From assembly GCA_013041745.1 (NCBI GenBank), contig JABDRN010000131.1, positions 1 through 41,333 of the forward strand: DNA of 41,333 nt, read 5' to 3'. Below the pieces are notes generated by a model. That model had not been told where the DNA came from. It did not search any database and was given only the letters and a program-made list of their open reading frames with translations. Shown here one piece after another: positions 22,080 to 41,277 of the stretch. Position numbers and translations under genes: made by a program. The first letter of the stretch is position 1; each line of letters starts with the position of its first letter. The DNA is from Gammaproteobacteria bacterium. GTDB taxonomy: Bacteria > Pseudomonadota > Gammaproteobacteria > SZUA-229.

Positions 22080-24068
22080 ATGAACAAGCTTGCAGATGAA
22101 GAGAAGACTATCACCAAACCGGGAATAATAAACAAGAAACAGGTCATTGCTGCTGTGATCTTTGCCGCATTAGCTCTATACCTGGCCACTGTGGTACCGA
22201 CCATTCAGATCGCCTGGGTTAGCGCAATCTTAATATTGACCATCTACCTGTTTGCTTTTGAGATCGTTGGAGTCGATGTTGCCGCCATCAGCATCATGGT
22301 AATACTGGGACTGACATCATTACTCGCACCGTTCATGGGACTGGAACAAGGACTGGTTGACAACACACACCTGTTTGACGGCTTTTCATCGAATGCAGTG
22401 ATGTCGATCATCGCAGTGATGATTATCGGAGCAGGTCTCGACAAGACCGGCATCATGAGCAAGGTTGCCGGCTTCATTCTAAATATCGGCGGAACCACCG
22501 AAAAACGTATCATCCCGATCATTTCAGCCACTGTCGGTTTCATCTCGTCGTTCATGCAAAACGTCGGCGCCGCTGCCCTGTTCCTGCCGGTAGTATCCAG
22601 AATCTCAGCACGCTCCGGCCTGCCGATGTCACGACTGCTGATGCCGATGGGCTTCACAGCCATCCTCGGTGGCACCATGACCATGGTCGGCTCCAGCCCG
22701 TTGATCTTGCTCAATGACCTCATCCTCACTTCCAACAAAGCATTACCTACTGACCAGCAGATGGACACCTGGGGTCTGTTTTCTGTCACACCCATAGGTG
22801 CCGCGCTGATCATTACCGGTATCGCCTATTTTGTTATTGCGGGGCGTTTCGTATTGCCTAAAACCAAGAGTGAGAGCAGCACCAGCGGTGCAGACTCAAT
22901 GCAGTATTTCCGGAATGTCTATGGCGTCAACTATTCACTCTCAGAGGTCGAAGTTACTGAGGGCAGCCCGATGGTCGGCAAGCTGATCGATGAAGTCGAA
23001 AGTGTCTGCCGTATCCGTATCATAGCAACCAAACGCAAGAGCGATGAGATCAGGGTCGGCCCAGGCGCACTGGCGCGTGATATAGAGATTGAAGACGGCA
23101 TGATACTTGGCATCATCGCAGACCCAAACGATTTGGACAACTTCATCGAAAAAGGCCACCTTGAAAGACATACCAAGATAACAACCTTTTCTGAAGACCT
23201 GTCTGCGGCTAAGACAGGTGTCGCCGAAGTCGTTATTCCACCAGGTTCCAGCCTGATCGGCAAATCAGCACGCGATGTGTGGATGCGCAAGACCTATGGC
23301 CTTGCCCTGATCGGATTGCATCGCGAAGGTAAAACCCTGCGCGAAGGCGATGATATCCGCAATATGGAGCTGATGGCAGGTGACACATTAGTCGTGCATA
23401 CACCATGGATCGCGCTGGAGCGCATCGAGAAGAGTCGTGATTTCGTCGTGGTGACCACCGAATATCCGCGTTCGGAAGAAGTACGCCCGCACAAGATACT
23501 GCCTGCCCTGATCTTTTTTGGCATCGCACTGTTCATGGTGTTATTCACTGACATCCGGCTCTCAGTCGCTCTGTTAACCGGTGCCATGGGAATGGTACTA
23601 TCCGGTGTATTGAACATCGAAGAGGCCTACGAAGCGGTTAGCTGGAAGACGGTCTTCCTGCTCGCCTCACTTATCCCGCTAGGTCTCGCCGTTGAGACCA
23701 CCGGTACTGCAAAGTGGATCGCAGACCAGGTGCTGCTCGTCGTCGGCGGTATGGATATTTGGATCATCCAGCTTGCAATCGCCATACTCGCAACCTTCTT
23801 TACCCTGGTGATGTCCAACGTTGGCGCAACCGTACTTCTGGTACCACTGGCGGTCAATATCGCTATCGGCGCCGGCGCAAATCCTGCCGTATTCGCACTT
23901 ACCGTAGCCATCGCCACCTCTAACTCTTTCCTCATCCCTACACACCAGGTCAATGCTCTGATCATGGGTCCTGCGGGTTATAAGGTGTCTGACTTCATGA
24001 AAGCCGGTGGCATCATGACTGTCCTGTTCCTCGTCGTCATGATGATAATGTTGAACCTGGTATTTTAA
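22080..24068 (+). CDS. SLC13-family permease with TrkA-C domains
   Basis: 662 aa. Two membrane halves (about 20-265 and 475-662), each resembling sodium/anion symporters of the SLC13/ArsB-NhaD superfamily, flank a cytosolic insert with two TrkA-C (RCK_C) domains (about 290-360 and 380-455). Loops such as SFMQNVGAAALFLPV and GGTMTMVGSSPLILLND contain the Asn-Val/Ser-Pro type hairpin motifs of the superfamily. Relatives carry sulfate, dicarboxylates or other anions with sodium, and the RCK_C pair likely binds a ligand for gating. Substrate unknown. nhaD follows 20 nt later, so a sodium-coupled pair is plausible. Confidence 0.85.
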   Translation: MNKLADEEKTITKPGIINKKQVIAAVIFAALALYLATVVPTIQIAWVSAILILTIYLFAFEIVGVDVAAISIMVILGLTSLLAPFMGLEQGLVDNTHLFDGFSSNAVMSIIAVMIIGAGLDKTGIMSKVAGFILNIGGTTEKRIIPIISATVGFISSFMQNVGAAALFLPVVSRISARSGLPMSRLLMPMGFTAILGGTMTMVGSSPLILLNDLILTSNKALPTDQQMDTWGLFSVTPIGAALIITGIAYFVIAGRFVLPKTKSESSTSGADSMQYFRNVYGVNYSLSEVEVTEGSPMVGKLIDEVESVCRIRIIATKRKSDEIRVGPGALARDIEIEDGMILGIIADPNDLDNFIEKGHLERHTKITTFSEDLSAAKTGVAEVVIPPGSSLIGKSARDVWMRKTYGLALIGLHREGKTLREGDDIRNMELMAGDTLVVHTPWIALERIEKSRDFVVVTTEYPRSEEVRPHKILPALIFFGIALFMVLFTDIRLSVALLTGAMGMVLSGVLNIEEAYEAVSWKTVFLLASLIPLGLAVETTGTAKWIADQVLLVVGGMDIWIIQLAIAILATFFTLVMSNVGATVLLVPLAVNIAIGAGANPAVFALTVAIATSNSFLIPTHQVNALIMGPAGYKVSDFMKAGGIMTVLFLVVMMIMLNLVF

Positions 24069-24088
24069 GGGCATACTAGTACAAAGCC

Positions 24089-25516
24089 ATGAACTTACTG
24101 ATGAAACTCATGCCGGCACTCCTGCTTGCAACTTTTCCCGGGCTGGTTTTGGCTACAGAAAGCTCTGCCGCGCAACAGATAGATATGACAGGGCACTGGA
24201 TTGGCTTCCTGTCGATCATCATCTTCGTCGGAGCCTACCTCCTGGTGATGACCGAAGAGTTTACCGTCCTGCGAAAATCAAAGCCCGTGATCCTCGGTGC
24301 CGGACTGATCTGGGGCCTTATCGGCTGGTTCTATGCTAGCAACGGTATGCCACATGAAGCGGAGTACGCGGTAAGACACAACCTGGAAGAATACGCCGAA
24401 CTGATGCTGTTCCTGCTGGTAGCGATGACCTATATCAACGCCATGCAAGAGCGTCGGATTTTCGATGCTCTACGTGCATGGTTGGTTCGTAGCGGCTTTG
24501 GTTTTCGCTCGTTGTTCTGGATCACCGGTACGCTGGCCTTCTTCATCTCACCTATCGCCGATAACCTGACTACCGCATTACTGATGTGCGCGGTGGTGTT
24601 GGCCGTCGGTGGCGATAACAGTCGTTTCATCACCCTGGCCTGCGTCAATATCGTCGTCGGTGCAAATGCCGGCGGTGCGTTCTCGCCTTTTGGCGACATC
24701 ACAACGCTGATGGTCTGGCAGAAAGGTATCGTTGAGTTCTGGACCTTCTTTGCACTGTTCATCCCGTCAGCAGTCAACTACCTGGTGCCTGCCGTGATCA
24801 TGCACTTTGCCGTCCCCGATGTTAAACCAGAGGCATCAGGCGAACAGGTTAAGATGCAGCGGGGTGCCAGGCGTATCATCCTGTTATTCCTTGCAACTAT
24901 CGCGACCGCAGTGTCATTTCATAACTTCCTGTACCTGCCGCCGGTTATCGGCATGTTGACGGGGCTCAGTTACCTGCAGTTTTTCGGTTACTACCTGAAG
25001 AAGACTCATGGCAGACACCTGGACAAACCCGATAATCCAGAAAATCATGAAGACCTGGGCGCTTCACCTGCTCCCTTCGATGTATTCTCACCAGTAGCAA
25101 AAGCCGAGTGGGATACCCTGTTCTTCTTTTACGGCGTCGTGCTGTGTGTCGGTGGTCTCGGCTTTCTCGGTTACCTGAGCCTGATCTCGGAGTTGATGTA
25201 CACTGGCTGGGGTGCAACCAATGCGAATATCGCAGTCGGCTTATTATCTGCTATCGTCGATAACATCCCCGTGATGTTCGCGGTACTTACCATGAATCCG
25301 GAGATGTCTACTGGCCAGTGGCTGTTAGTGACACTGACCGCTGGTGTCGGCGGATCATTGCTATCGGTCGGTTCTGCTGCCGGTGTCGCGCTCATGGGAC
25401 AGGCCCGAGGAAAATATACTTTCTTCGGCCATCTCAAATGGACACCCGCAATCGCGGCCGGTTATTTCGCCAGCATCTACGTGCATATGTGGATCAACAG
25501 CACCTACTTTAGCTAG
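24089..25516 (+). CDS. nhaD: sodium/proton antiporter NhaD
   Basis: 475 aa with 11-13 membrane helices. The cleavable-looking N-terminus (LLLATFPGLVLATESSAA) is usual in NhaD, unlike most antiporters. The conserved core includes ISPIADNLTTALLMCAVVLAVGG and NAGGAFSPFGDITTLMVWQKG, holding polar residues within helices needed for cation exchange. IVDNIPVMFAVLTM is the matching motif in the second half. It exports sodium in exchange for protons at the inner membrane and would recycle sodium brought in by the SLC13 permease or other sodium symporters. It is second in a two-gene unit. Confidence 0.93.
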   Translation: MNLLMKLMPALLLATFPGLVLATESSAAQQIDMTGHWIGFLSIIIFVGAYLLVMTEEFTVLRKSKPVILGAGLIWGLIGWFYASNGMPHEAEYAVRHNLEEYAELMLFLLVAMTYINAMQERRIFDALRAWLVRSGFGFRSLFWITGTLAFFISPIADNLTTALLMCAVVLAVGGDNSRFITLACVNIVVGANAGGAFSPFGDITTLMVWQKGIVEFWTFFALFIPSAVNYLVPAVIMHFAVPDVKPEASGEQVKMQRGARRIILLFLATIATAVSFHNFLYLPPVIGMLTGLSYLQFFGYYLKKTHGRHLDKPDNPENHEDLGASPAPFDVFSPVAKAEWDTLFFFYGVVLCVGGLGFLGYLSLISELMYTGWGATNANIAVGLLSAIVDNIPVMFAVLTMNPEMSTGQWLLVTLTAGVGGSLLSVGSAAGVALMGQARGKYTFFGHLKWTPAIAAGYFASIYVHMWINSTYFS

Positions 25517-27523: not shown

Positions 27524-27871
27524 CTATATATCTGTTGAACTGTCAGCGTCACTAAACTTGACCAAACGTGTAACCTGGATATCTGATACGAAAACGACGC
27601 CTGAATGTTCGTTATAAAAAGGGGCGAAACCCTGCAGGATTGGACTGACGAGAGACTCAGGAACCGCAGCTATTATCATGATGAGCACATCATCCTCATT
27701 GAACATGACATGACCATCATGAAAACCATGACTACCTTTGCCCGAAATATTATTTACTATGGTGTATCCCTTTACGCCGATCCTGTCCAGTAAATCGGTC
27801 GCGAACTCCTGGTATTCACCCTCGATGATGATTTCGAGCTTTTTCAGATGATTGAATTTCAAATTATTCAT
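27524..27871 (-). CDS. PII-like signalling protein of the DAB operon, CPII-like
   Basis: 115 aa. The opening LKKLEIIIEGEYQEFATDLLDRIGVKGYTIVNNISGKGSHG has the PII ferredoxin-like fold pattern: first strand, helix, second strand, then the T-loop region, here HGFHDGHVMFNEDD instead of a canonical uridylylated T-loop. Canonical GlnB residues (Tyr51 context, the BC-loop TGxxGDGKI) are absent, so it is a divergent member. A carboxysome-associated PII-like protein (CPII) that binds adenine nucleotides and bicarbonate is known in other chemoautotrophs, and this is the likely counterpart. Its ATG overlaps the dabA stop by 4 nt, so translation is coupled to the carbon pump it presumably regulates. Confidence 0.8.
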   Translation of the reverse strand: MNNLKFNHLKKLEIIIEGEYQEFATDLLDRIGVKGYTIVNNISGKGSHGFHDGHVMFNEDDVLIMIIAAVPESLVSPILQGFAPFYNEHSGVVFVSDIQVTRLVKFSDADSSTDI

Positions 27872-30800
27872 AAAGCAAGAGCCTCCTGGTCTTTTACCAT
27901 ATCCGGATTATCTGGTGCATGATATTCCTGCCAGTCACCATTAGAATATATATGTGTCAAACCTGTTTGTGGATCACGTATTAACACACGTATCCAGCCA
28001 TTATGCATTAATCGTTTTACGCTAGATACACGATAGATCGCATTGACCACGTGGTCGAATGGGGCCTCGATCAGTGTTATCAAGCGCATCGGTTCATGAT
28101 ACGGTCGGCCATCAGCCAAAACAGTTTGTGCCGGCAAGCCCGTACGTAGGTCACTCAGGTTACCGGTCATTACGCCAAATCGGCCAGCCACATTATGGTA
28201 AACCTTGCTTCCGCTACCATAATGATCGTTATCGACGGTGGAAAAATAATGCTCCATATTTATCCACTGCCCAACGACCAGCGGACCGGTTAGAATATTT
28301 TCCAGCAGAAGCAACTTGCTATCTACGCGATAGTCATAGGAATGCAAGAAAGCTCGACCATCCAGTGAAAATGTTTTTGTCAGTGAACGCCGCCCGATAA
28401 TAAAATAAACATTACGTGATAACCCCCACTCCGGTCTTACCTGAGACCAGTCCATCGCATTACGCAGGGCCTGCTTGTCCGCATTATCAGCTGTCGGAAG
28501 ATCTGAGATAAAATCAAGACTGGGAACCCGCTCTTGCGCACAGAGTCGACTGGCTGCGACTAGATTACCACGTAATCGATCGAGATAGATCGGGTGTGTC
28601 GAGGGCAATAGATTCAGGTCATGTAATTCAACTTCATCTGTGGTCGTGTTATGCATGGCAGGGACAAACCAGGAGTCGTCAGGGATATTTACGCCCTGAT
28701 TTCTAAGTCGCTGCCTGACCGCCGGCTTGTTCGCCATGAGCGCTAAAATTCGTGCATTAAACTCACCTACGTTACCGCCACAAGCGCCGCAATCAAGGGC
28801 AGATTCATAAGGATTATTCTCTGACTGACTTCCATGACCGACAACGAGGATAAAGCGAGAAAAGTTTTTGACCAGGCCTATCGCATGTAATGCCTGTGAA
28901 ACAAAAACCACCTGCTCTTCTAGACTAAAACCAATCCGGCCGAGGCGTTCCATCTGCATACGCGCGTCATATGGATTAATATGATATGTTTTACGTAAGC
29001 GTTTAATAAAAGAACGCGCCTGATCGTTATCCAGTTTTAACTGCTCCAGCAATAGAGGTGTTACTAAATCATGACCCAATGCTGCTTCACGCAACTCTCT
29101 GACCAAATCATCTTTAATTCTTTCTGGAGGCACTTCAAACTCGAGCTCTATAGCTTGAGCAACTACAGCACGCTGTACAGCACGAACAATAGAATCTGCT
29201 TTACTGCGACTTAGCTTATCTATCAATAGATGTGTATGCGGTTTATGTTGATGTAGACCTGACCGCCAACGATTATATTTTCGTGGAGCAAGTGTCTTAC
29301 CTACCATATCGAAACCAAATATCCAGCCTATCGCCTCCACCGTAACAAACGGTGAAAGTATCGTTTCTTTAAGTTTATGTACCGCTTTTTCCATAACTGT
29401 GAAAGCAACAGAATCCTGAAACTCGTTCACTGTCATTTCCATTGCCAGGTTTTTTGGCGTCAGCAGTACAGGGCACAGGTGTGCTTCTGTGCCTTTACCC
29501 AGTTCGACAAAACTGACAGGGACACCAAAAAAGCCAGCGATGCCAAATGTCTGGTAGTCGCCAACCCCTTCCAGGTGCCTGCGCAATCTTTCAGAACGGA
29601 CATCGATACAGAAAAGTGCTTGCACAAATGGGCGCTTGTCGCTGCTAACCGGCGCCGTATCCTGAAAAGCATTCAACAGCTTATCAATGGCTGTTGCTTC
29701 CATTGCTTCTAGCCAGATCATACCTTCTTGCTGTTCCAGGTCTCGAATTATAAAAAGTAATGATGATAAATTTTCATCAGGAATGGTCTTTAGCCCTTGC
29801 TCAGCATTCGCACACTCAGCAAGTCGACTTACAGATTTTGCTAATATCGTCGCATCCCGCACTCGCTTGTCCTGCATGTGGCTTAATCCGAGCTCATCAA
29901 TTTTCTTAGCGTTATCTGTGAGTATTGCCTGCTCTACCTTTTGCGCCCAGCGAGGATTAATAGTTCTGCCATAGAGTTGATGACGCAAACAAGCTTGCAT
30001 TGGATGTTTTTTTACGAAAGCCTGTAATTCATCAAGATTACTCGGTATACCTTTGCGTGCACGGTCGTCTATCAAAGCCAGAGCCAAAGTCAGACGAACT
30101 GCAAGGAAATCAACCAGGTCACCGGGATGCTGCACACCTTGAAAATAATGTCGTGCATTTGACCGCCAACGAATGAAACCTGCCCAGCCATGCAAAACTG
30201 AAAGCTCACGACGGAAATAGCTCATCCATCGTTCTTTGGGAATATTCAAACGTTCCATCACATAAACAATAATGCCTTCAGGGTCTTCAGATACCTCAAG
30301 GATTTCACATATCCTTCGCCCTTTAAATAGAATACCCAAGTTACGAAAAGACACTTCACGCCAGGCGGAAAAGAAGCCGTCTTTTCTGTTTGGCATACCC
30401 CATGCAGACTGCCCTTCGTCAAAAAAGTTCAGACAACTCTTAATAACCAGTTCGTCAAGCTCTTCGCCTATCTCCGTATCAAACAAACTATCTAATCTTT
30501 CGTACAGCGGGCTATTATTGAGTAATGAACCGCACAATTTCTGAGTTAGCGCATCAACGTCTGGTTGACTGGACTCACACAGTTCTTCGCCACGTATAAC
30601 CGCTGCAATATCATTGCTACTGGCAAGTGAATTCGTGCACCTGCTATCATCAACGGTTAGCGGTGATTCCACTTTAGTCAGCAACGCCATCAACCAGCTA
30701 TGTATGTCGATACCTGCAATCGGCTCATGTTGACTAAGAAACTTTTCGACCAGGAAAGATAGCGACTGATGCGAAATTTTTTCCTCGTTGTAATACCTTT

Positions 30801-31002
30801 GATAGATATTGCGATGCAGAAATCCTCTGCCATGGAACAGCTTCTCTCCTTCCGCTATGGCATCTTTGAAACTTAGTTTCTCCAAACCCTGAAGCGGGTT
30901 ATGGTGAATAAAAGACCGCATCGGCCAAAACAATGGAATCGTTTCGCCCGCAACAAAAATCAAAGAGCGAATTTCGGCCTTCATTCCAATTGACAGACTC
31001 AT
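27868..31002 (-). CDS. dabA: DabA, zinc-dependent subunit of the DAB inorganic carbon pump (DUF2309)
   Basis: 1044 aa, a long member of the UPF0753/DUF2309 family. The beta-carbonic-anhydrase-like zinc site is intact: Cys465-Ile-Asp467-x-Arg469 (FCIDVRSER), His723 (VGHGSQSENNPYESALDC) and Cys738. DabA is cytoplasmic and peripheral, and hydrates CO2 to bicarbonate only when energised through the membrane subunit DabB. About 200 residues beyond the shorter DabA proteins are spread through insertions. The start overlaps the upstream membrane gene by 4 nt and the stop overlaps the PII-like gene by 4 nt. Assignment is firm from the motif set. Confidence 0.95.
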   Translation of the reverse strand: MSLSIGMKAEIRSLIFVAGETIPLFWPMRSFIHHNPLQGLEKLSFKDAIAEGEKLFHGRGFLHRNIYQRYYNEEKISHQSLSFLVEKFLSQHEPIAGIDIHSWLMALLTKVESPLTVDDSRCTNSLASSNDIAAVIRGEELCESSQPDVDALTQKLCGSLLNNSPLYERLDSLFDTEIGEELDELVIKSCLNFFDEGQSAWGMPNRKDGFFSAWREVSFRNLGILFKGRRICEILEVSEDPEGIIVYVMERLNIPKERWMSYFRRELSVLHGWAGFIRWRSNARHYFQGVQHPGDLVDFLAVRLTLALALIDDRARKGIPSNLDELQAFVKKHPMQACLRHQLYGRTINPRWAQKVEQAILTDNAKKIDELGLSHMQDKRVRDATILAKSVSRLAECANAEQGLKTIPDENLSSLLFIIRDLEQQEGMIWLEAMEATAIDKLLNAFQDTAPVSSDKRPFVQALFCIDVRSERLRRHLEGVGDYQTFGIAGFFGVPVSFVELGKGTEAHLCPVLLTPKNLAMEMTVNEFQDSVAFTVMEKAVHKLKETILSPFVTVEAIGWIFGFDMVGKTLAPRKYNRWRSGLHQHKPHTHLLIDKLSRSKADSIVRAVQRAVVAQAIELEFEVPPERIKDDLVRELREAALGHDLVTPLLLEQLKLDNDQARSFIKRLRKTYHINPYDARMQMERLGRIGFSLEEQVVFVSQALHAIGLVKNFSRFILVVGHGSQSENNPYESALDCGACGGNVGEFNARILALMANKPAVRQRLRNQGVNIPDDSWFVPAMHNTTTDEVELHDLNLLPSTHPIYLDRLRGNLVAASRLCAQERVPSLDFISDLPTADNADKQALRNAMDWSQVRPEWGLSRNVYFIIGRRSLTKTFSLDGRAFLHSYDYRVDSKLLLLENILTGPLVVGQWINMEHYFSTVDNDHYGSGSKVYHNVAGRFGVMTGNLSDLRTGLPAQTVLADGRPYHEPMRLITLIEAPFDHVVNAIYRVSSVKRLMHNGWIRVLIRDPQTGLTHIYSNGDWQEYHAPDNPDMVKDQEALAL

Positions 31003-31757
31003 AGCATCACCTCCGACATATAGAGGCCGCCAGCGACGAGCAAGAAAAAGGAAAGAATGAACAGCATAGCCATACTCTGACTGATATCCTCATATTGAAT
31101 TACCGCAGGATCACCGACCACAAGCTCATGTAACAGGCGGATACCTGACCAGCTCCATAACAACCAGACCAGTACGATCGCGAAAGCAATCGAAGGCATC
31201 ACCATTACAACATTATTAATATTACTCAATAGAGAGAAAAATGAGGGAAATAGAGGACTGCCTATTACTGCCAGCATTACGACAACAAATAAACCGGTCA
31301 TCCTCGGTTGCTCCTGCGCCAGTCCAGTTACCACCCCGGCGTAGGCCGACTCATACTGCCGCTCTAATCTAGCCACCAGAATTGCAAGTAGGGCTAAAGG
31401 CAGGCTAAAAGCGAAGGCATGCATCATCAAATCATCGAATCTAGCACCAAGGTAAACAGCGGTCCAGAGAAGAGACCAGGCTGATGTAGCAATAAATCCA
31501 GTCCAGACACTCAGTTCTTTTACTACCACCGTTCGGAAACTATATAAGATAGATGTGAGCAAGGCCCAAAGCACCAAGGTATCACCGATTTGGCTGGAAT
31601 CACTCTCAAGCAACCAAAGACCAGGTAGCGGCCAAACCAGTAACACGGGTACACGGATCCATGCAGAGCTGGCTCGCTGAAAAACGAAATTAAAAACGAT
31701 ACTCATCGGGAACAGCGGTAAAAAAAATGCTGCAAGAAGTAGACTCGTCGACTGCAT
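30999..31757 (-). CDS. third membrane protein of the DAB operon, NuoM/MrpD-like half
   Basis: 252 aa from ATG 31757, which overlaps the dabB stop as TGATG; a GTG three codons upstream is possible but has a poorer context. Seven or eight membrane helices are visible. The stretch GLAQEQPRMTGLFVVVMLAVIGSPLFPSFFSLL (about residues 143-175) resembles the region of NuoM/NuoN/MrpD antiporter subunits that reads roughly like 'GL ... P ... GLP ... F'. The protein is only half a subunit long, and the charged helix residues (Glu, Lys) used in proton transfer are not evident. It probably assembles with DabB in the membrane. Known two-gene DAB systems lack it. Confidence 0.75.
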   Translation of the reverse strand: MQSTSLLLAAFFLPLFPMSIVFNFVFQRASSAWIRVPVLLVWPLPGLWLLESDSSQIGDTLVLWALLTSILYSFRTVVVKELSVWTGFIATSAWSLLWTAVYLGARFDDLMMHAFAFSLPLALLAILVARLERQYESAYAGVVTGLAQEQPRMTGLFVVVMLAVIGSPLFPSFFSLLSNINNVVMVMPSIAFAIVLVWLLWSWSGIRLLHELVVGDPAVIQYEDISQSMAMLFILSFFLLVAGGLYMSEVML

Positions 31758-33436
31758 CACACCCACCTCAACAAAACATTAAGCCGTGTTGCAAGTCTGT
31801 CTAACCGACGTACGAGCGAGGTATAAAGCTCTATGATATAGAACTCGCGAGACAATAAGGCATAAAAAGCTAGCCATAGTGGTTTATAAACCCGTTCAAC
31901 ATAATATCCTTTGCGTGTGCCGTAATAAGTACGCAGCCAATTTGCGATAATTGTAAGCGTTATAATTATGACAATCGCATCGAACCAAAAAACGTCGATA
32001 CCAGCCGCAGCATACAAGCGCGCAGCAAACACCTGATCTGGGTATAGGAATAAATCGAAAGCATGGCTGATAAAGGTATAACCTAACACCACGATTACGA
32101 AAGAAGTTATCATAAGGGCGAACAAACGGGTGAAGTTTTTAGTTCGCATGCGGTAAGTCACAAACAATAACTGGGCGCCGGTTATCCAGCCGAAGAAGAG
32201 TAAAATAATGGCCCCTTGTTTATGAATAAAGTCTTGCGCGACTAACCAGTGTGCCAGGAATATAACTACAGCCGGTATTGCGAGCGTCATTACTGCCATC
32301 AACAACCAGGGCTTACGGTTTCTCGCCGGGCGCTTCGCTATAACAAAATTATATAAGGCATCTTTTGGAATACCATCATCTTGACGCGCTTTGCCGATGA
32401 CTCCGCCCGCACTTAAGAACATTGTGCCTTTGAATAGACCATGCGCTATCAAATGGTATATTGCCAGGGAAAAGGCGCCGACGCCACACTCCATGATCAT
32501 GAACCCCATCTGACCCATAGTGGAATATCCCAGGGCCTTCTTGATGTCATTTTGGGTTAGCATAAGTAACGAACCGAGTACAGCTGTCACCAGTCCGACG
32601 ACCAAAACCCAGTGTAATACGCCACTGGTCTCAACATACACCGGTGCAAAACGATTAATCAAAAAGCCGCCTGCATTAACGATTCCTGCATGCATCAGTG
32701 CTGATACAGGTGTCGGACCACTCATCGTATACGGCAACCATGTATGCAACAAAAATTGAGCAGAGCGAGCAAAAGCTGCCAGTGCGATTAACGAGCCAAC
32801 AACTTCAACAAGTGAAAAATCGAATACCGTTAACATATGAGGGTCAGCGGCAATACGCTCGAAGATGTATGAGAGAGACCAGCTACCAAACGCCTGATAG
32901 AGCAATACAGCGGCCAATATCAAGGGCAAATCACCAAATCGATAGGTTATCCAGGTCCAGAAGGCATAGCGGTATGCGGGGCGACTGCGCGCGTCATGAC
33001 CTAACAGGAAATACAACAGGATACCGACGAGGTGCCAGGCAATAACTAGCGTAATAAGGTCGCCAGCCACAACCATTAGCATCAGGCTACCAGTCATTAA
33101 ATCTAATAGAGTGAAAAACCTGCCATATCCGGGTTCTTCGACCATGTACCTGACAGAGTAGACGTGTACGATGAGACTAATAGCAGAGATGACCAGGCAC
33201 ATTAGAGTGCCTAGCGAATCGAAACGAATGACACCCCAGCTGAATAAAAGCGAATATTCTTGTACAGTCGGATCAGAAATTGCCAGCCAGAGTGTTATGC
33301 AGGCCAGGATAAACGTTAGCCAAAGTGACATTACACTAACGGTCGCAGCCCGTTTACCTAAGCGGCTGCAAAACAGTTGAGTCACGATTGCCGAAATAAA
33401 CGGGAGCGCGATCACTAACAAAATCAACTGCTGCAT
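31757..33436 (-). CDS. dabB: DabB, membrane subunit of the DAB inorganic carbon pump (NuoL/MrpA family)
   Basis: 559 aa with about 14 membrane helices. The antiporter-like core is clear: VIAWHLVGILLYFLLGHDARSRPA, LLHTWLPYTMSGPTPVSALMHAGIVNAGGFLI (the H-x-WLP...P-x-S-x-L-x-H motif) and NDIKKALGYSTMGQMGFM. The C-terminus continues past the core with extra helices. DabB is thought to use the proton or cation gradient to make DabA hydrate CO2 in one direction. It starts the tight unit dabB-membrane protein-dabA-PII-like, every junction overlapping. It is not complex I: no other nuo genes are present. Confidence 0.94.
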   Translation of the reverse strand: MQQLILLVIALPFISAIVTQLFCSRLGKRAATVSVMSLWLTFILACITLWLAISDPTVQEYSLLFSWGVIRFDSLGTLMCLVISAISLIVHVYSVRYMVEEPGYGRFFTLLDLMTGSLMLMVVAGDLITLVIAWHLVGILLYFLLGHDARSRPAYRYAFWTWITYRFGDLPLILAAVLLYQAFGSWSLSYIFERIAADPHMLTVFDFSLVEVVGSLIALAAFARSAQFLLHTWLPYTMSGPTPVSALMHAGIVNAGGFLINRFAPVYVETSGVLHWVLVVGLVTAVLGSLLMLTQNDIKKALGYSTMGQMGFMIMECGVGAFSLAIYHLIAHGLFKGTMFLSAGGVIGKARQDDGIPKDALYNFVIAKRPARNRKPWLLMAVMTLAIPAVVIFLAHWLVAQDFIHKQGAIILLFFGWITGAQLLFVTYRMRTKNFTRLFALMITSFVIVVLGYTFISHAFDLFLYPDQVFAARLYAAAGIDVFWFDAIVIIITLTIIANWLRTYYGTRKGYYVERVYKPLWLAFYALLSREFYIIELYTSLVRRLDRLATRLNVLLRWV

Positions 33437-33715: not shown

Positions 33716-35356
33716 TTAACTAACCGCCAGTTTCAGCGCTTTAGAGCGCTTATCTGTAATATTGTCCGCCGGTATCTTTTGCAGCACACCCAGCGTTGCA
33801 AGACGTTTCATCGGCTGCTGGTCATTAGCACCCACCACATAAACTGAACGGCCAGCATTAACCATATCAAGCATTGCCTCTTCCAGGGCCAGTGCTGAAG
33901 ATACTCCAAGATGTGGAACATCTTTCAGGTCGATCACAAGTGCCATGCAATCTTCGAATTGAGAATTTTTACGTGAGATCGCTCGTGATGTGCCAAATAT
34001 CATAGTACCCTTAAGGTGCAGCAACAAAACTTTACCCTCTGCGGATAGCAAAAGCTCTTTTTCTAGTGCAGACATCTCAAGATCCGTCTTCTTAGGATCT
34101 GTAACTGCTTTAACATCATCAGACTGCAACTCAGATAAACGCGTGATGGTCATCACATTGGCTAAAAATAATCCGATACCGACGGCCACGATCAGATCAA
34201 CAAAAACAGTAAGTGCGATGACACCGTATGTGATCAAAGCACCCTTACCAGAGATCGAATGTGCGCGCTTCAGGAAACCCCAGTCGATAATATCGACACC
34301 CACTTTCAGAGCGATCCCGGCCAGCACCGCGAGGGGGATGACAGATGTTAGATCTGCCGCCCATAACAACACGACCAGCAGTATCGCTGCCCTTACAAGG
34401 CCGGACAAGGCTGTCTGCGCACCTGCCTGTATACTGACCACCGTACCCATAGTGGCACCTGCGCCAGGGAGACCGCCAAACAAACCTGACATCACATTCC
34501 CAATACCTTGACCAACCAGCTCTTTGTCCGAGTCATGTTGATTACGCGTTAAGCTATCTGCGACAACAGATGTAAGCAATGCATCAATACAACCCAACAT
34601 GCCTAGTACAAGCGCATCGATCAACATCACTTTCATTTGATCTGCGCTGAACATTGGCATCTGGAAGTCAGGTAAGCCAGTAGGTATCTCACCGATACGG
34701 CGAATATCATCTGATGATATAAGGGTCAAAGATATCAGCGTGCACACAATTAATGCCGCCAGTTGCGGAGGTAAAAACCGTTTTAGCCTGCCCGGCATGA
34801 ATACAAGAATCATTACGGTTATCAATGCCAGCAGCGTTTCTTCTCCCTGGATATTTGAAAATAATACGGGTATTTTTTCGAGGATCCCGATGACGCCGCC
34901 AGCGGGTGCAGCCTGTCCAAGCAAGGGACCAATTTGAAGAATCACAAGGATAATACCGATACCAGACATAAAGCCGGAGACTACCGTATAAGGCATCAGT
35001 GTGACATATTTCCCTAAGCGCATGACACCAAACGAAATCTGGAACAGGCCTGCCATGATGACAACCGTAAAGGCCATTGCCATACCATTCTCCGGGTTCG
35101 TTGCGATCAACTCTGCTATCACAGCGGTGAAAACGACGGTCATGGGACCGGTTGGTTCCGAGATCAAAGTGGGCGAGCCACCAAACAAGGCGGCAAACAG
35201 ACCAACTAGAACCGCACCATATAGACCGGCTTCTGCACCGGCTCCCGATGCAACACCAAATGCAAGGGCCATGGGTAATGCAATGACCGCAGCTGTGACA
35301 CCACCAAAAACATCGCCATGTACATTTTTTAAATTTATTTCATTAAAAATCCACAT
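33716..35356 (-). CDS. SulP-family anion transporter, probable bicarbonate transporter
   Basis: 546 aa. The SulP membrane domain (about 1-400) starts NLKNVHGDVFGGVTAAVIALPMALAFGVASGAGAEAGLYGA and has LISEPTGPMTVVFTAVIA, the usual substrate-site helices. A STAS domain follows (about 440-545, MALVIDLKDVPHLGVSSALALEEAML). Family members carry sulfate, nitrate or bicarbonate, and cyanobacterial BicA is a SulP protein. Placement between cbbR and dabB in a carbon-concentrating island argues for bicarbonate, but the sequence alone does not settle substrate. It faces the same way as both neighbours, with gaps of 203 and 279 nt, so it probably has its own promoter. Confidence 0.9.
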   Translation of the reverse strand: MWIFNEINLKNVHGDVFGGVTAAVIALPMALAFGVASGAGAEAGLYGAVLVGLFAALFGGSPTLISEPTGPMTVVFTAVIAELIATNPENGMAMAFTVVIMAGLFQISFGVMRLGKYVTLMPYTVVSGFMSGIGIILVILQIGPLLGQAAPAGGVIGILEKIPVLFSNIQGEETLLALITVMILVFMPGRLKRFLPPQLAALIVCTLISLTLISSDDIRRIGEIPTGLPDFQMPMFSADQMKVMLIDALVLGMLGCIDALLTSVVADSLTRNQHDSDKELVGQGIGNVMSGLFGGLPGAGATMGTVVSIQAGAQTALSGLVRAAILLVVLLWAADLTSVIPLAVLAGIALKVGVDIIDWGFLKRAHSISGKGALITYGVIALTVFVDLIVAVGIGLFLANVMTITRLSELQSDDVKAVTDPKKTDLEMSALEKELLLSAEGKVLLLHLKGTMIFGTSRAISRKNSQFEDCMALVIDLKDVPHLGVSSALALEEAMLDMVNAGRSVYVVGANDQQPMKRLATLGVLQKIPADNITDKRSKALKLAVS

Positions 35357-35559: not shown

Positions 35560-36606
35560 CTATTTAGCAGATTTTTTATCCTGTTTCGAAATCATGTCTT
35601 TAAGAGCCGGCCACATTTCTTCCACACGTTTTCGTATTATGGGCTCATATTCTATGGCAAACTCGAGGAAAGTTTTAGCGACCAGTGACAACTCCTTGTC
35701 TTTAAGGTGAACCAGGTACCATTTACGTAAGATGGGAAAACCCTCGACATCGAGCACAGCCAGAGGCCCATCGACGCCCTCGATCGCGAGAGTATGCAAT
35801 GACATGACAGAGATACCAAGGCCACCGAAAATTGCATGCTTGATAGCTTCAGTATTACCCAGCTCCATGCGCACGTTGGGTTTCAGCCCTCTGCTCTCAA
35901 AAATACGAAAAGTTATATCTCGAATACCTGATCCGGGCTCACGGATTATAAATGGCTCTTTTGCAATCTGTTCAAGCTTTATATTTTTCTTGCCAACCAG
36001 GGGGTGGTTGCGTGGTGCCAGAACAACCAGAGGGTTAGGGCCAAAAGGATAAGATACAACTTCCAGTCCATCTTCAGGCACCTGCCCCATGATATATAGA
36101 TCGTCCTCATTAGCATGCATACGCTCGATAACCGTATCACGGTTGGTTATCTTGAGAGACAGGTTTATGCCTGCATAGTCACGACTGAACTCACCCAGCA
36201 TCTCTGGTGCAAGATATTTTGCCGTGGTGATAACACACATATTCAGGCGACCACGTCTTAAACCCTTCATGTCTGAGATTTTCATCTCCAGGTTGACCAG
36301 GGTCTCGAAGACACTTTTACAGGCGTCGTAAACCTCGGCGCCCGCTTCTGTTGGTCGCACGTTTCGACCAACATGCTCGAATAAAGGCACACCTATCGCA
36401 TCAGATAGTTTTCGAATCTGCATGGAGACTGTCGGCTGAGTGAGAAATAATTCTTCTGCCGCACGGGTAAAGCTGCCGAGTCGGTAAATTGCTTCAAACA
36501 CCTGAAGCTGACGCAAGGTTGTATATCGAATCAGGTGATCAGGTACCGCAGATGGTGGCGTATAACTGTTATCGCTGGGTTTCGATATGTTTTTTGTCTT
36601 TTTCAT
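35560..36606 (-). CDS. cbbR: LysR-type regulator of carbon fixation, CbbR-like
   Basis: 348 aa. The winged helix (about 27-90) reads LRQLQVFEAIYRLGSFTRAAEELFLTQPTVSMQIRKLSDAIGVPLFEHVGR, close to CbbR proteins. The effector domain has IREPGSGIRDITFRIFESRGLKPNV, typical of CbbR. A basic N-terminal extension of about 25 residues and a Lys-rich tail make it longer than the usual 300-330 aa. CbbR activates Calvin-cycle and carbon-concentrating genes in response to metabolites such as NADPH or RuBP. Here it lies downstream of mcdB and upstream of the SulP gene on one strand rather than divergent from cbbL. Confidence 0.88.
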   Translation of the reverse strand: MKKTKNISKPSDNSYTPPSAVPDHLIRYTTLRQLQVFEAIYRLGSFTRAAEELFLTQPTVSMQIRKLSDAIGVPLFEHVGRNVRPTEAGAEVYDACKSVFETLVNLEMKISDMKGLRRGRLNMCVITTAKYLAPEMLGEFSRDYAGINLSLKITNRDTVIERMHANEDDLYIMGQVPEDGLEVVSYPFGPNPLVVLAPRNHPLVGKKNIKLEQIAKEPFIIREPGSGIRDITFRIFESRGLKPNVRMELGNTEAIKHAIFGGLGISVMSLHTLAIEGVDGPLAVLDVEGFPILRKWYLVHLKDKELSLVAKTFLEFAIEYEPIIRKRVEEMWPALKDMISKQDKKSAK

Positions 36607-36784: not shown

Positions 36785-37027
36785 TCAGTCCGGCCAAACG
36801 CGCTTTGCAGCCTGATAGCTATCAGAAGCAGTTTTCTTTGACACGGCAGGTTTAGCTGCTTTTTTTGTTGCCTTAGCTTTATTTGCAGGCGCTGCTTTTG
36901 CTTTGCTCGCAGGTGCTGCCTTCTTCACAGGCGCTGTCTGTTTAGCATCTGGCACTTCTTTTGCACCCTGTTTGCTTACTCGCATGGAATCGAGCAACTT
37001 GCTCTTGGCTTGATCTGACGTTGACAT
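36785..37027 (-). CDS. mcdB: McdB-like carboxysome positioning adaptor
   Basis: 80 aa, basic and low complexity. An N-terminal segment SKLLDSMRVSKQ is followed by an Ala/Lys/Pro-rich disordered region with repeated units such as PASKAKA and PANKAKA. The tail KRVWPD keeps a single Trp (Trp78) two residues from the end. Small disordered proteins with such a C-terminal Trp, encoded right after a ParA-like ATPase in alpha-carboxysome operons, are McdB: they connect carboxysomes to McdA on the nucleoid. Its ATG directly follows the mcdA TAA. The call rests on position plus the Trp tail, since low-complexity sequence is poor evidence. Confidence 0.75.
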   Translation of the reverse strand: MSTSDQAKSKLLDSMRVSKQGAKEVPDAKQTAPVKKAAPASKAKAAPANKAKATKKAAKPAVSKKTASDSYQAAKRVWPD

Positions 37028-37648
37028 TTATACTACCTCTTGAATAAGTGAATTGATTTCCTCTACAGCGTCGGCGCCACGCTTACCAATGCCGAATACA
37101 CTTTTACCTTCAAGTGCACTGTTACGATAAATTGCTCGCCGCCTAATTGCAGTGTCAGCAACAGGCAAAGCAATTTCATTGAGAACTTCGCGGACAAGCT
37201 TCGACAACGTTGTACGTGATTCCAGCTGGTTAATGACCAGCAAAGCTTTTAATTCCGGGTTCGTCTCTCTCGCTTCTGCAATTGCTTTTTCAATGTGTAC
37301 CGTTGCCCACAGATCCATCGGTGATGGTTGCACCGGTATTATAGCGATATCAGCAAACTCAAGTACTGAAACACTCTGCGGGGATTTAACAGAAGGAGGA
37401 CAATCGATAAGCACAACATCGTTCTTACCAGAATATGATTGCGCTTGTTGCTTTAAAGAGAAAGTGGGTGCGTAGACAGGAAAGTGAACATTGTCACCAG
37501 CTATAGCACGCCACTGCAGGGACGATCCCTGTGGGTCAGCATCAATGACAGCGATGCTTGATTGATTTGAAATTCCAGCTGCAAGATTAACACTGAGAGT
37601 GGTTTTACCTGCGCCGCCTTTGTTACCTACTATGGCAATAATGGGCAT
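37028..37648 (-). CDS. mcdA: McdA, ParA/MinD-type ATPase for carboxysome positioning
   Basis: 206 aa. The deviant Walker A NKGGAGKTT carries both the signature lysine (Lys10) and the P-loop lysine (Lys15). VIDADPQGSSLQWR and VVLIDCPPS are the Walker A' and B motifs. ParA-like ATPases of this size coat the nucleoid, and in alpha-carboxysome operons they distribute carboxysomes together with McdB. It lies 9 nt after acRAF and directly before mcdB. A plasmid-type ParA is unlikely given the lack of parB and the operon position. Confidence 0.9.
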   Translation of the reverse strand: MPIIAIVGNKGGAGKTTLSVNLAAGISNQSSIAVIDADPQGSSLQWRAIAGDNVHFPVYAPTFSLKQQAQSYSGKNDVVLIDCPPSVKSPQSVSVLEFADIAIIPVQPSPMDLWATVHIEKAIAEARETNPELKALLVINQLESRTTLSKLVREVLNEIALPVADTAIRRRAIYRNSALEGKSVFGIGKRGADAVEEINSLIQEVV

Positions 37649-37657
37649 AAGTTAATC

Positions 37658-37918
37658 TCAGTTAGTAAATTGTTCAGCTAGACTATCTAATTTTGAAGCG
37701 AACTCATGCTGCATGTCGCTAATTTTTTCAACACCCTCTTCCAGATGGATGGTGATGTTTACATAATCACGTCCGAAGCCCATATCGGGATATAAATCGA
37801 CTTCTTCAGAGAGTTCCGCAGCTTTATCCAGGAAATCACGTAACGTGTGGTAATCCTGAAATTCATAGCGCCTTTCCAGGCGCACTGGTCGTGTGCGCTC
37901 TTGCCACTGTTGGCTCAT
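37658..37918 (-). CDS. acRAF, pterin-dehydratase-like Rubisco assembly factor
   Basis: 86 aa with the fold pattern of pterin-4a-carbinolamine dehydratase. The catalytic His-His-Pro stretch of the true enzyme is replaced by DLYPDMGFGRDYVNITI (about 41-57), so dehydratase activity is not expected. Such a degenerate protein, found in alpha-carboxysome operons, is the Rubisco assembly factor acRAF. It starts with an Arg-rich segment (RTRPVRLERRYEF). It lies between the bacterioferritin-like gene and mcdA, the usual position. Confidence 0.87.
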   Translation of the reverse strand: MSQQWQERTRPVRLERRYEFQDYHTLRDFLDKAAELSEEVDLYPDMGFGRDYVNITIHLEEGVEKISDMQHEFASKLDSLAEQFTN

Positions 37919-37966
37919 CGCTCATCTCCGGCTGATTATACAGTTTGGTGACGGGTCACCTTATTA

Positions 37967-38401
37967 TTACAATGTTTCGATCCATTGTAACAAATCTTTT
38001 TCATGAGTGCGTTCTTCGCTTAGCAATGCCTCAAAAAATAGACGACTATCTTTATCACCGGATTTTTCGCAATGCGAGGTCGCTGCCCCATATAAACCGA
38101 TCAATTCCCTTTCGAATGCCAGGTCGTGCTGCAATAGCTCATGTAATGTTTGTCCGAGGGACACAGGACGCAATTGTGATGCGTTCGGTGCCACCCCCAG
38201 AGCTAACATTCGACTGATAATACGTTCAGCATGCCCCATCTCTTCTTTGGACTCTGCGCGAAATTTTTCAGCCACATCGGCCAGCCCCCAGGATGCTACT
38301 AGCATTGCCTGTGTGCTGTACAGTTGTACCGCAGAGAGCTCGAGGCTCAGGGCACGACCGAGGTAACCTAATACGCGTTCGTCCGCGTTGATATGAAACA
38401 T
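37967..38401 (-). CDS. carboxysome-operon bacterioferritin-like protein
   Basis: 144 aa, a four-helix bundle. Ferroxidase ligands are all present with the exact E. coli bacterioferritin spacing (offset +3): Glu21, Glu54, His57, Glu97, Glu130 and His133. Met55 (EEMGH) corresponds to the haem-ligand Met52. The C-terminal short fifth helix is missing: the protein ends at DLLQWIETL rather than about 158 aa. Bacterioferritin-like genes are regular members of alpha-carboxysome operons, but their role is unsettled. An iron-handling or oxidation function tied to the carboxysome is inferred only from position. Confidence 0.88.
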   Translation of the reverse strand: MFHINADERVLGYLGRALSLELSAVQLYSTQAMLVASWGLADVAEKFRAESKEEMGHAERIISRMLALGVAPNASQLRPVSLGQTLHELLQHDLAFERELIGLYGAATSHCEKSGDKDSRLFFEALLSEERTHEKDLLQWIETL

Positions 38402-38436
38402 GTGTCCGTATTACTAGCCGTTCAACAACCAGTCAT

Positions 38437-38745
38437 TCAACTGCGCGACGCACCACTTGTTCCGTCAAGCACACCTTCAACTTCATTGTGTGGACGAGCA
38501 ATAATGTGCGCTGCTACCAGACCGTCGCCAACGCGTTCACAAGCATCAGCTCCAGCGCGTACTGCAGCATTAACCGCACCAGTTTCACCACGGACCAGTA
38601 CCGTCACGTAACCGCCGCCGACAAATTCACGTCCGATGAGACGTACTTCTGCTGCTTTAGTCATCGCATCAGCTGCTTCGATAGCGGGAACGAGTCCGCG
38701 TGTTTCAATCATGCCCAGAGCAATGCCGTAATTATCGTTAGCCAT
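38437..38745 (-). CDS. csoS1: carboxysome shell hexamer protein CsoS1 (second copy)
   Basis: 102 aa, a BMC-H fold. Residues 1-86 are identical to the upstream copy, including RLIGREFVGGGYVTVLVRGETGAVNAAVRAG with the small pore glycines. Only the tail differs: NEVEGVLDGTSGASRS here. Hexamers tile the facets of the alpha-carboxysome shell, and the pore passes bicarbonate and phosphosugars. It follows the other copy by 43 nt. The DNA differs from its twin at many third positions. Confidence 0.97.
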   Translation of the reverse strand: MANDNYGIALGMIETRGLVPAIEAADAMTKAAEVRLIGREFVGGGYVTVLVRGETGAVNAAVRAGADACERVGDGLVAAHIIARPHNEVEGVLDGTSGASRS

Positions 38746-38788
38746 GGTCTGTTTCTCCTATAACTTTAAGTTGGGTAATAAAATTACC

Positions 38789-39091
38789 TTATTTCTTAGC
38801 TTCACCTGCAGGTAATACAGGCTCAACTTCTTTGTGAGGACGAGCAATAATGTGAGCTGCTACCAAACCGTCACCAACGCGTTCACAAGCATCTGCACCA
38901 GCGCGAACTGCAGCGTTGACCGCACCAGTTTCACCACGTACTAATACTGTTACGTAACCACCGCCAACAAATTCACGTCCGATCAGACGTACTTCTGCTG
39001 CTTTGGTCATAGCGTCAGCCGCTTCAATTGCAGGCACTAAGCCGCGTGTTTCAATCATACCGAGTGCAATGCCGTAGTTGTCATTAGCCAT
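38789..39091 (-). CDS. csoS1: carboxysome shell hexamer protein CsoS1 (first copy)
   Basis: 100 aa, a BMC-H shell protein equal over residues 1-86 to the other copy; its own tail is KEVEPVLPAGEAKK. It has a strong Shine-Dalgarno sequence (TAGGAGTATG) before the ATG, fitting the large amount of shell protein needed. The 107-nt gap upstream holds a hairpin at the csoS4B stop. This copy corresponds in position to the csoS1C/A pair of other alpha-carboxysome operons; a longer csoS1B-type gene is not present in the window. Confidence 0.97.
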   Translation of the reverse strand: MANDNYGIALGMIETRGLVPAIEAADAMTKAAEVRLIGREFVGGGYVTVLVRGETGAVNAAVRAGADACERVGDGLVAAHIIARPHKEVEPVLPAGEAKK

Positions 39092-39183
39092 CTTTACATA
39101 CTCCTAAGTTTTAAGTTGTAGACTTTGTTGTTCAAATCATTAAATAAGTTACACAAACTGGTTATTTATATCCAAGTTGTTGC

Positions 39184-39199
39184 AACCGTTTTCTCGGTT
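39184..39199 (-). promoter_or_regulatory. hairpin at the csoS4B-csoS1 junction
   Basis: AACCG (39184-39188) pairs with CGGTT (39195-39199) and overlaps the csoS4B stop codon, upstream of a T/A-rich 107-nt spacer. A small hairpin between low-abundance vertex genes and high-abundance shell genes could protect or segment the mRNA. It is short and may be chance. Confidence 0.3.
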
Positions 39200-39456
39200 T
39201 ACTGACCAGTGTCAGCATCCCAAAAATCTATTATTCCCGCGACAGTCAGGTCCGTCAGTATCCTGAAGTCGCCCGCAGCAAACCGTGCTGCCGAACCACT
39301 GGATGTAAACACCCAGTTCCCCGGATTAACACCTACCGGGTCAACGGCAACCTGCGGGTTGCCGCTTTTGTCTCGCAATACGCGAAGACTTATATCTCGC
39401 AAACCTTCGACACGACGAGTGCATACCAGCGTATCGACTACCTGCATAATCTCCAT
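39199..39456 (-). CDS. csoS4B: carboxysome pentamer protein CsoS4B
   Basis: 85 aa, a BMC-P (EutN/CcmL-type) vertex protein. DPVGVNPGNWVFTSSGSAARFAAGDFRILTDLTVAGIIDFWD is diagnostic, with the Gly/Ser loops lining the fivefold axis. It starts MEIMQVVDTLVCTRRVEGL. Pentamers close the twelve corners of the icosahedral shell. It follows csoS4A by 22 nt. It is more diverged than csoS4A, as in other operons. Confidence 0.95.
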   Translation of the reverse strand: MEIMQVVDTLVCTRRVEGLRDISLRVLRDKSGNPQVAVDPVGVNPGNWVFTSSGSAARFAAGDFRILTDLTVAGIIDFWDADTGQ

Positions 39457-39478
39457 CTCGTGCTACCTGATCCGAGCC

Positions 39479-39742
39479 CTAAGCCTCGGACTCACCCTCC
39501 GGTTCCCAGTGATCGATGATACCGACGATGGTCAGATCGCTCGGGTACCCCTTGCTGCCAGCCGCTTCACGCGCTGCAGAACTACCGACACACAGGACCC
39601 AGTCGCCGGGGCGCGTACCCACCGGATCGACAGCAACTGCCAGTGCACTACCATCACGTACTACCTGGAGATGCTTGTGTTCCATCTCTGGTATGCGGTT
39701 GGTCGAAACCAACGGTTTCACTATCTGGCAAATCTTCATCAA
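39479..39742 (-). CDS. csoS4A: carboxysome pentamer protein CsoS4A
   Basis: 87 aa, BMC-P vertex protein, with DPVGTRPGDWVLCVGSSAAREAAGSKGYPSDLTIVGIIDHWEP. It begins MKICQIVKPLVSTNRIPEMEH, typical of CsoS4A. Its ATG overlaps the csoSCA stop by 4 nt, coupling translation of a low-copy corner protein to a low-copy enzyme. Confidence 0.95.
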   Translation of the reverse strand: MMKICQIVKPLVSTNRIPEMEHKHLQVVRDGSALAVAVDPVGTRPGDWVLCVGSSAAREAAGSKGYPSDLTIVGIIDHWEPEGESEA

Positions 39743-41277
39743 TGTCCTCCGGCTAACTCGGTCTTCACCGAACAGTCGAGTATCTCCAAGTTACCTGCAG
39801 CCTTGATGTCTCGCACCACCTGCAGGGTATGCAGCAGACCTTTCTCACTCAGGTCGCTGTAACGGCTGTGGAACGCATCCGACACCCGCTTACAATGTTC
39901 TTCCGCTCGCTCACGTGCCCCTGGTACATTACCGTGGTAATCAAACCTCACCACTATCGGTACCGGCAGTCCGTGCGAGACGTTCAGGCCCGTGAATATG
40001 CTGACACCCACATCCAGGTCACCGGCAGCCTCCTCAACCGTGTTGAGGTAGGAGAAGAACGTCAGGTTACGAAGTTGTACTTCCTCGAAACCGATACCTG
40101 CACCGATAAATCGTTCGGCGTGGCCGACGTCGCTGTAATGACCGTTATGGTACGCCCTTACATACTCGACCTGTGACAGGTTGTTCTTCAGCAGATAGGC
40201 CATGAACTTCGCCATGCCTTCCACCAGTGCCACACCACCTTTCTGGTTGATGTGGTCAGCGATCCATTGCTCGGCCTGTACTGCACCCATGTGTGCAGTG
40301 CTGTCGAAAACCTCCATGCTGTCGACGTAATTCTCCGGGTCGATCTCGCCGCTCGCGTCTGGCATGTGGATGCGTATCGCATCGGTATCCGTATCCATGC
40401 CGATCAACAGCGTGTCGATCGAGGCTCCGCAGCAATGCGTGTTCTGCACTGCCTGCTGGAAGCCTTTCAGCTTCGAGATACCGCCGGCAATAGCCGCGTT
40501 ATCATCGGAGCCATGTGCCGCACAACCCTGGTGAGCCGGATCCAGCGAACTGAAGTGGTATACGACCGTCTTCAGGTAACGCGTCGGCGCGTCAGCGGTG
40601 TTCGGTACACCTTCGCGGAATCGAACCAGCTCGGTTCGGGTCCACTTACCCAGGCTGTCCTCGATGTCAAACATCGCGCCGGCAAATGAGCGGCGACGTA
40701 CTGCCCCGGTTGGCAATCTCAATATATACCTGATGACATGTGCTGCACGGCCATCCGCACAGGGCGTAACATCCATCAGGTGGAAGCCACACTCTTCCAG
40801 CATCCTCTGGAAAGCTTCCTCATCACTGTTCCCCAGCGGCTCACTGGTGAACACGTCGTCGGCGAAGCGACGGTATGTCTGGAACAGCGACCAGGCAAAC
40901 AGGCTACGCATGTCCAGCTGATCTACCCAGGCATCTTCCAGCAGTATCGTCGGCAGTTCGAATCCGAGCTGCGATTGCGCGATACGCTGCGCCTTGTTGA
41001 CGAAATCTGCTTCGTGCTGCAGTGCCGAAATCTTTTTCAGAGCCGGCACGATTCCGTCGAATGCTTCCTTTACACTGCTCTCATAATCGAACAGCCTGTT
41101 GTTCTCACGTGCATCCGTCAGTGGATGCGCCTTTGCCAAATTATGGCCTGTAGCAGTATGCCGGGTGCTACTCGCTTCTGTACCGACTGCTGCTGCACCT
41201 GTTCCTGCTCCGGGCCTGCCACTAGGCGCACTGCCACCAACCCTTCTTCGATTCCTGTTGTTACTACGTTTCAGCAT
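39739..41277 (-). CDS. csoSCA: carboxysomal carbonic anhydrase CsoSCA (CsoS3)
   Basis: 512 aa. A disordered, Gly/Ser/Arg-rich N-terminus (1-45) precedes a helical domain, the catalytic domain and a C-terminal pseudo-domain. The zinc site of this divergent beta-type enzyme is complete: Cys173 with the Asp175/Arg177 dyad (TPCADGR), His241 and Cys252 (YHFSSLDPAHQGCAAHGSDDN), positions that nearly equal those of Halothiobacillus CsoSCA. It turns bicarbonate into CO2 inside the carboxysome, close to Rubisco. The ribosome site is weak. csoS2 should end within or just beyond the last 56 nt, but I could not fix its frame. Confidence 0.97.
   Translation of the reverse strand: MLKRSNNRNRRRVGGSAPSGRPGAGTGAAAVGTEASSTRHTATGHNLAKAHPLTDARENNRLFDYESSVKEAFDGIVPALKKISALQHEADFVNKAQRIAQSQLGFELPTILLEDAWVDQLDMRSLFAWSLFQTYRRFADDVFTSEPLGNSDEEAFQRMLEECGFHLMDVTPCADGRAAHVIRYILRLPTGAVRRRSFAGAMFDIEDSLGKWTRTELVRFREGVPNTADAPTRYLKTVVYHFSSLDPAHQGCAAHGSDDNAAIAGGISKLKGFQQAVQNTHCCGASIDTLLIGMDTDTDAIRIHMPDASGEIDPENYVDSMEVFDSTAHMGAVQAEQWIADHINQKGGVALVEGMAKFMAYLLKNNLSQVEYVRAYHNGHYSDVGHAERFIGAGIGFEEVQLRNLTFFSYLNTVEEAAGDLDVGVSIFTGLNVSHGLPVPIVVRFDYHGNVPGARERAEEHCKRVSDAFHSRYSDLSEKGLLHTLQVVRDIKAAGNLEILDCSVKTELAGGH

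Follow-up and report, generated by a model that had tools for sequence, protein, structure and literature searches.

The window, a stretch of 41,333 nucleotides from a gammaproteobacterial contig, carries a unit of four genes on its reverse strand in the order dabB (31757–33436, 559 aa), a third gene (30999–31757, 252 aa), dabA (27868–31002, 1044 aa) and, as the last member, a PII-family gene (PF00543; 27524–27871). The initial annotation had described the third gene as a 252-aa open reading frame made in step with dabB and dabA through TGATG and ATGA overlaps, and this description holds. The ATG of the third gene shares its A with the dabB stop codon (TGATG at 31757), and its TGA sits within the ATGA of the dabA start (31002); this 4-base overlap is usual across related loci. 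The starts of the third gene and dabA have good purine-rich Shine-Dalgarno sequences (GAGGTG and GGAGGTGAT). The genomic context, upstream and in the same direction, comprises a SulP-family transporter with a STAS domain (33716–35356), a LysR-family regulator (35560–36606) and a carboxysome block (36785–41277) of ParA-like, acRAF-like, bacterioferritin-like, two csoS1, csoS4B, csoS4A and csoSCA genes, named by sequence and conserved order. The products of the two adjacent csoS1-like shell genes (38437–38745 and 38789–39091) are near-identical, differing mainly in their tails. Elsewhere in the window (22080–25516) lies a tandem pair of transporter-like membrane proteins, the second of which (24089–25516) matches the CitMHS citrate transporter family.

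DabA belongs to PF10070 (E = 1.8e-250) and has the zinc-site residues C465, D467, H723, C738 and C741, which are conserved across all DAB classes. Within its finger helices (residues 535–571; 29290–29400), Glu556 corresponds to the finger residue Glu444 of DabA2. The best structural matches of the DabA model (pLDDT 73.6) were beta-carbonic anhydrases, with CsoSCA at a Z of 8.1, a value at the edge of meaning; no DAB2 entry stood among the matches listed. The adjacent DabB is a NuoL-like membrane subunit (PF00361, PF00662) with the half-channel residues K299, H328, H332 and K336, and these are kept in 64 of 64 DabB proteins from loci with the third gene. At the place of NuoL Glu144, the interface ion-pair residue, it has His135 (codon 33032–33034). 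Judged by these sequence features, and by the DAB1-type arrangement in which dabB and dabA flank a small membrane gene and PII comes after dabA, the locus most likely encodes a predicted DAB1-type CO2-hydrating pump in which the third gene supplies a third membrane subunit.

A single scan across 84,980 species genomes yielded 63 loci with the third gene, hosted by Gamma-, Beta- and some Alphaproteobacteria and by Verrucomicrobiota bins; two of these loci end inside the third gene. It is 240–256 aa long in nearly all complete copies. The initial annotation had proposed a survey for co-occurrence and held that widespread occurrence without dab genes would speak against it. The third gene was found only beside DabB and long DabA: dabB is directly upstream in 63/63 loci and dabA directly downstream in all 61 where the contig allows. 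Among 276 genomes of the class, the 30 with a strong match all have it next to a long-type DabA (for G223, the contig breaks off within dabA). Widespread occurrence away from dab genes was looked for in both sets of genomes and was not seen. A PII gene comes after dabA in 53/63 loci; the contigs of the remaining 10 stop short of that position. Only part of the set is near carboxysome genes, with csoS1 in the flank at 16/63 loci. In six comparisons of close relatives, dN/dS of the third gene was 0.07–0.30; dabA and dabB gave 0.065–0.11, and the constraint on the third gene was the weaker in all six. Across 59 sequences of its product, 18 positions are invariant and another 18 almost so. The third gene is under purifying selection and far from neutral. 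This selection, together with 63 conserved loci, rules out a chance open reading frame.

A resemblance to the NuoM type of antiporter subunit had been noticed near residues 143–175; it is real and extends well beyond that stretch. The single 252-aa sequence had no match in Pfam and a sub-threshold match to the NuoM model TIGR01972 in NCBIfam (23 bits, cut-off 263.8); it is not a full-length subunit. Searching PDB directly with this one sequence gave noise only, and a family profile was required. With a family alignment of 59 members, 38 of which match TIGR01972, a PDB profile search placed NuoM/ND4 chains best (3.5e-8 for 8e9g_M). The single-chain AlphaFold2 model (pLDDT 93.8, pTM 0.91) has no soluble domain, and its top structural matches in Foldseek and VIA-align were NuoM/ND4. 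Residues 1–252 superimpose on residues 223–487 of E. coli NuoM (VIA-align; Z 25.5, rmsd 2.3 over 251 residues), and the broken helices TM7 and TM12 of NuoM are both still broken. Taken together, the family profile matches and the structural alignment identify the third protein, whose fold is predicted, as TM7–TM14 of NuoM over its entire length. An internal copy of DabB was rejected as the origin, as profile comparison of the third protein with DabB gave nothing. As to which NuoM was the source, that of DAB loci with a full-length NuoM-like gene or that of complex I, an AU test gave p = 0.078, so that a shared clade is neither refuted nor demonstrated, the stem being too long at 9.8 changes per column.

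Proton-path positions were read by alignment of the 59 relatives to E. coli NuoM, six of them falling in TM7–TM12. All six are replaced, in agreement with the earlier remark that no Glu/Lys proton-path pair was evident. Lys234 is Phe in 59/59 (Phe12 in the window; codon 31722–31724) and His241 is Ser in 56/59. Glu407 is Leu or Met in 56/59, with Val, Ile and Thr once each, and acidic in none (Leu176 in the window; codon 31230–31232). His322 has given way to small or hydrophobic residues and His348 mostly to Phe, Met or Leu; Lys265 is Gln or hydrophobic in nearly all, at a position where the alignment is less sure. No conserved charge was found inside the membrane core of the third protein, and those conserved charges still present (R35, R75, R80, R134, R152, R207 and D224) are at helix ends or in loops. 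Because the NuoM proton residues are replaced and the remaining charges lie at the periphery, a proton path through the third protein appears unlikely from its sequence. The proposal that it is a degenerate antiporter half is thus borne out by the structural and profile match to NuoM combined with this residue loss.

We compared three classes of DAB: two-gene loci, third-gene loci, and loci in which a long DabA has full-length NuoM-like and NuoL-like partners (hereafter the NuoM/NuoL class). The 17 two-gene loci examined encode a short DabA (750–880 aa where the start is clear). In the NuoM/NuoL class (L069, L070, L071, L074–L079 and L134–L138), dabA has a full-length NuoM-like gene (486–524 aa) on its upstream side and a NuoL-like gene on its downstream side; genomes G028, G032 and G040, which belong to the same family as the window, also have this class, and NuoM has been noted near such long-DabA genes (COGNAT; PMC5700660, 2017). 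The NuoM partner keeps all proton residues (8/8), and Lys342 of the DabB is Arg where readable. In two genomes of this class the NuoL-like and NuoM-like parts form one 1045-aa protein encoded after dabA (L105, 799–3936; L106, 353–3490), and this fusion suggests that the two partners work side by side. The fused protein has lost several NuoM proton residues (Glu144 to Leu, His348 to Leu, Glu407 to Ala). In a DabA tree (quick search, midpoint root), the third-gene class forms one clade (support 100), which joins the NuoM/NuoL class and two odd loci (support 97).

The classes differ at three further features. At the NuoL Glu144 place, DabB of the NuoM/NuoL class has Glu in 11/11, the fused form included; that of the third-gene class has His in 51, Tyr in 8, Phe in 3 and Asn in 2 of 64; and that of the two-gene class has Ile, Val or Leu in 13/17. 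The finger Glu is kept in 59/59 DabA proteins of the third-gene class and 17/17 of the two-gene class, and in 0/11 of the NuoM/NuoL class. A net insert of about 80 aa just after the finger helix, contained in residues 576–684 of the window's DabA (28951–29277) and predicted to be helical, occurs in the third-gene class only, in which 167–170 residues separate the finger Glu from GHGS, as against 86–91 and 65–89 in the others. These changes are clade-level and therefore amount to few independent events; the tracking at the Glu144 place covers three clades, or about three events. Other arrangements were also seen: a 950-aa DabA (L081, 1250–4102) adjoins a SulP-family gene (4105–5781), the stretch read showing no DabB-like gene, and a 1077-aa DabA (L080, 5508–8741, and L107) has no antiporter-like neighbour in the stretch read. 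Contig C41 of the window's own genome encodes a 1063-aa protein in which two antiporter-like domains are fused (L139, 1719–5845); it adjoins a NuoH-like gene, with no DabA nearby, and looks like part of a complex of the complex-I or membrane-hydrogenase type.

We favor, at a probability of roughly 0.6, the reading that the third protein derives from NuoM, is proton-dead and caps DabB laterally in a DAB1-type pump, both its position and its passive role being deduced rather than seen. A NuoM-like antiporter subunit would have been cut down to TM7–TM14, leaving a protein that carries no protons and is probably a passive side-piece of the pump, not a second pump. Protons would pass via DabB and the DabA finger helix as in DAB2, the residues being kept in both. 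Since the DabB half-channel and the finger Glu are intact, proton entry and coupling could work as proposed for that pump. The half-subunit most likely packs against the lateral, N-terminal face of DabB, as NuoM does on NuoL in complex I, where it would seal or steady that face and help to hold the long DabA in place. In complex I, the half of NuoM that adjoins NuoL is the half retained in the third protein. This correspondence, and the way the residue at the Glu144 place tracks the type of partner, support the cap. The class-specific DabA insert counts against it: the insert follows the finger, and the half-subunit might sit on the C-terminal side of DabB. Covariation between the third protein and DabB gave scattered signals at a Neff of 35, which represents too few sequences.

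In DAB2, the DabA finger contacts the C-terminal side of DabB. The main alternative, which we nonetheless consider unlikely, puts the half-subunit there, beside displaced C-terminal DabB helices and the finger; the extra post-finger helices of DabA would dock on it, and it would tune how the finger moves and, through this, how proton flow is coupled to CO2 hydration. The restriction of the predicted helical insert to the third-gene class fits such a placement, as do conserved arginines that the third protein has at its helix ends and that could form a docking face, but kinship with NuoM predicts the opposite side of DabB. The third protein could instead be an assembly or stability factor that aids DabB insertion and stays outside the mature pump. 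The weaker selection on the third gene and the ability of the two-gene DAB2 to work without it (PMC13144422) are compatible with such a role; we nevertheless give it a low probability, given the strict 1:1 linkage with translational overlap and a sister class that keeps its NuoM partner at full length and has fused it to NuoL twice. The regular presence of PII after dabA raises the idea of a membrane end of nitrogen/carbon control, with the third protein as docking partner of the adjacent PII protein. PII could equally act on DabA, however, and the third protein has no soluble domain to offer, which makes this very improbable. Loss of all catalytic residues of the ancestor might be taken as the mark of a decaying remnant, yet that account is already contradicted by the selection result (dN/dS well under 1), and with so many invariant positions and no loss in 63 loci we hardly credit it.

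A NuoM half without proton residues predicts that the third protein lies against DabB and is dispensable for proton flow itself, and its identity predicts that DabB His135 depends on it. The class comparison offers a natural experiment in which a complex-I type antiporter would have been turned into a passive part. We tentatively extend this, at less than even odds, to a graded series of DABs that would run from a two-channel form (DabA with intact NuoM and NuoL), through a fused form with NuoM partly stripped and a form whose NuoM half is proton-dead, to the two-gene form. Between classes, the DabB residue at the Glu144 place would be retuned, so that protons moved per CO2 and gating would differ.

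The E. coli CCM reconstitution reportedly relied on DAB1 as its pump. The third gene as such is already known from Halothiobacillus, and the premise of the initial annotation that known DABs consist of DabA and DabB only does not stand: Halothiobacillus neapolitanus has a published three-gene DAB1, hneap_0907 (DabA1), hneap_0908 and hneap_0909 (DabB1) (PMC4633670, PMC7714395, PMC13144422). The middle gene was described as coding for a hypothetical protein, putatively transmembrane, located between NuoL and DUF2309 (PMC4633670, 2015) and as an unnamed interstitial gene of the mrpA family, PF00361, within a DAB1 that complements CA-free E. coli (PMC7714395, 2020); DAB1 has since been called three-subunit (PMC13144422, 2026). 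These three papers state neither a role for the third gene, nor its identity as NuoM TM7–TM14 with the proton residues gone, nor a partner-dependent DabB residue. The window shares with H. neapolitanus the gene order, a DabA of similar length (about 1046 aa there), PII after dabA and an adjoining carboxysome operon; the H. neapolitanus type genome is not among the 63 loci, and hneap_0908 was compared by description, with three Halothiobacillus sp. loci (L028, L040 and L061) as the nearest sequence proxies. Compared with NuoM/ND4 of complex I, the whole third protein aligns with TM7–TM14, TM1–TM6 are missing, and no Nuo genes lie beside the third gene. DAB2 (DabA2–DabB2, PDB 9rd0) has in common with the window the zinc-site motifs, the finger Glu and the DabB half-channel residues, but it lacks a third subunit, and its DabA is short and without the post-finger insert. 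Where the window DabB has His135, DAB2 has Ile151, a residue described as belonging to an ion pair close to the subunit interface and shown by mutation to be important (PMC13144422). The NuoM/NuoL class (COGNAT clade C) resembles the window in that a long DabA is accompanied by two antiporter-like membrane subunits; there, however, NuoM is full length with its proton residues in place, the order is M-A-L, the finger Glu is absent and the Glu of NuoL Glu144 is kept.
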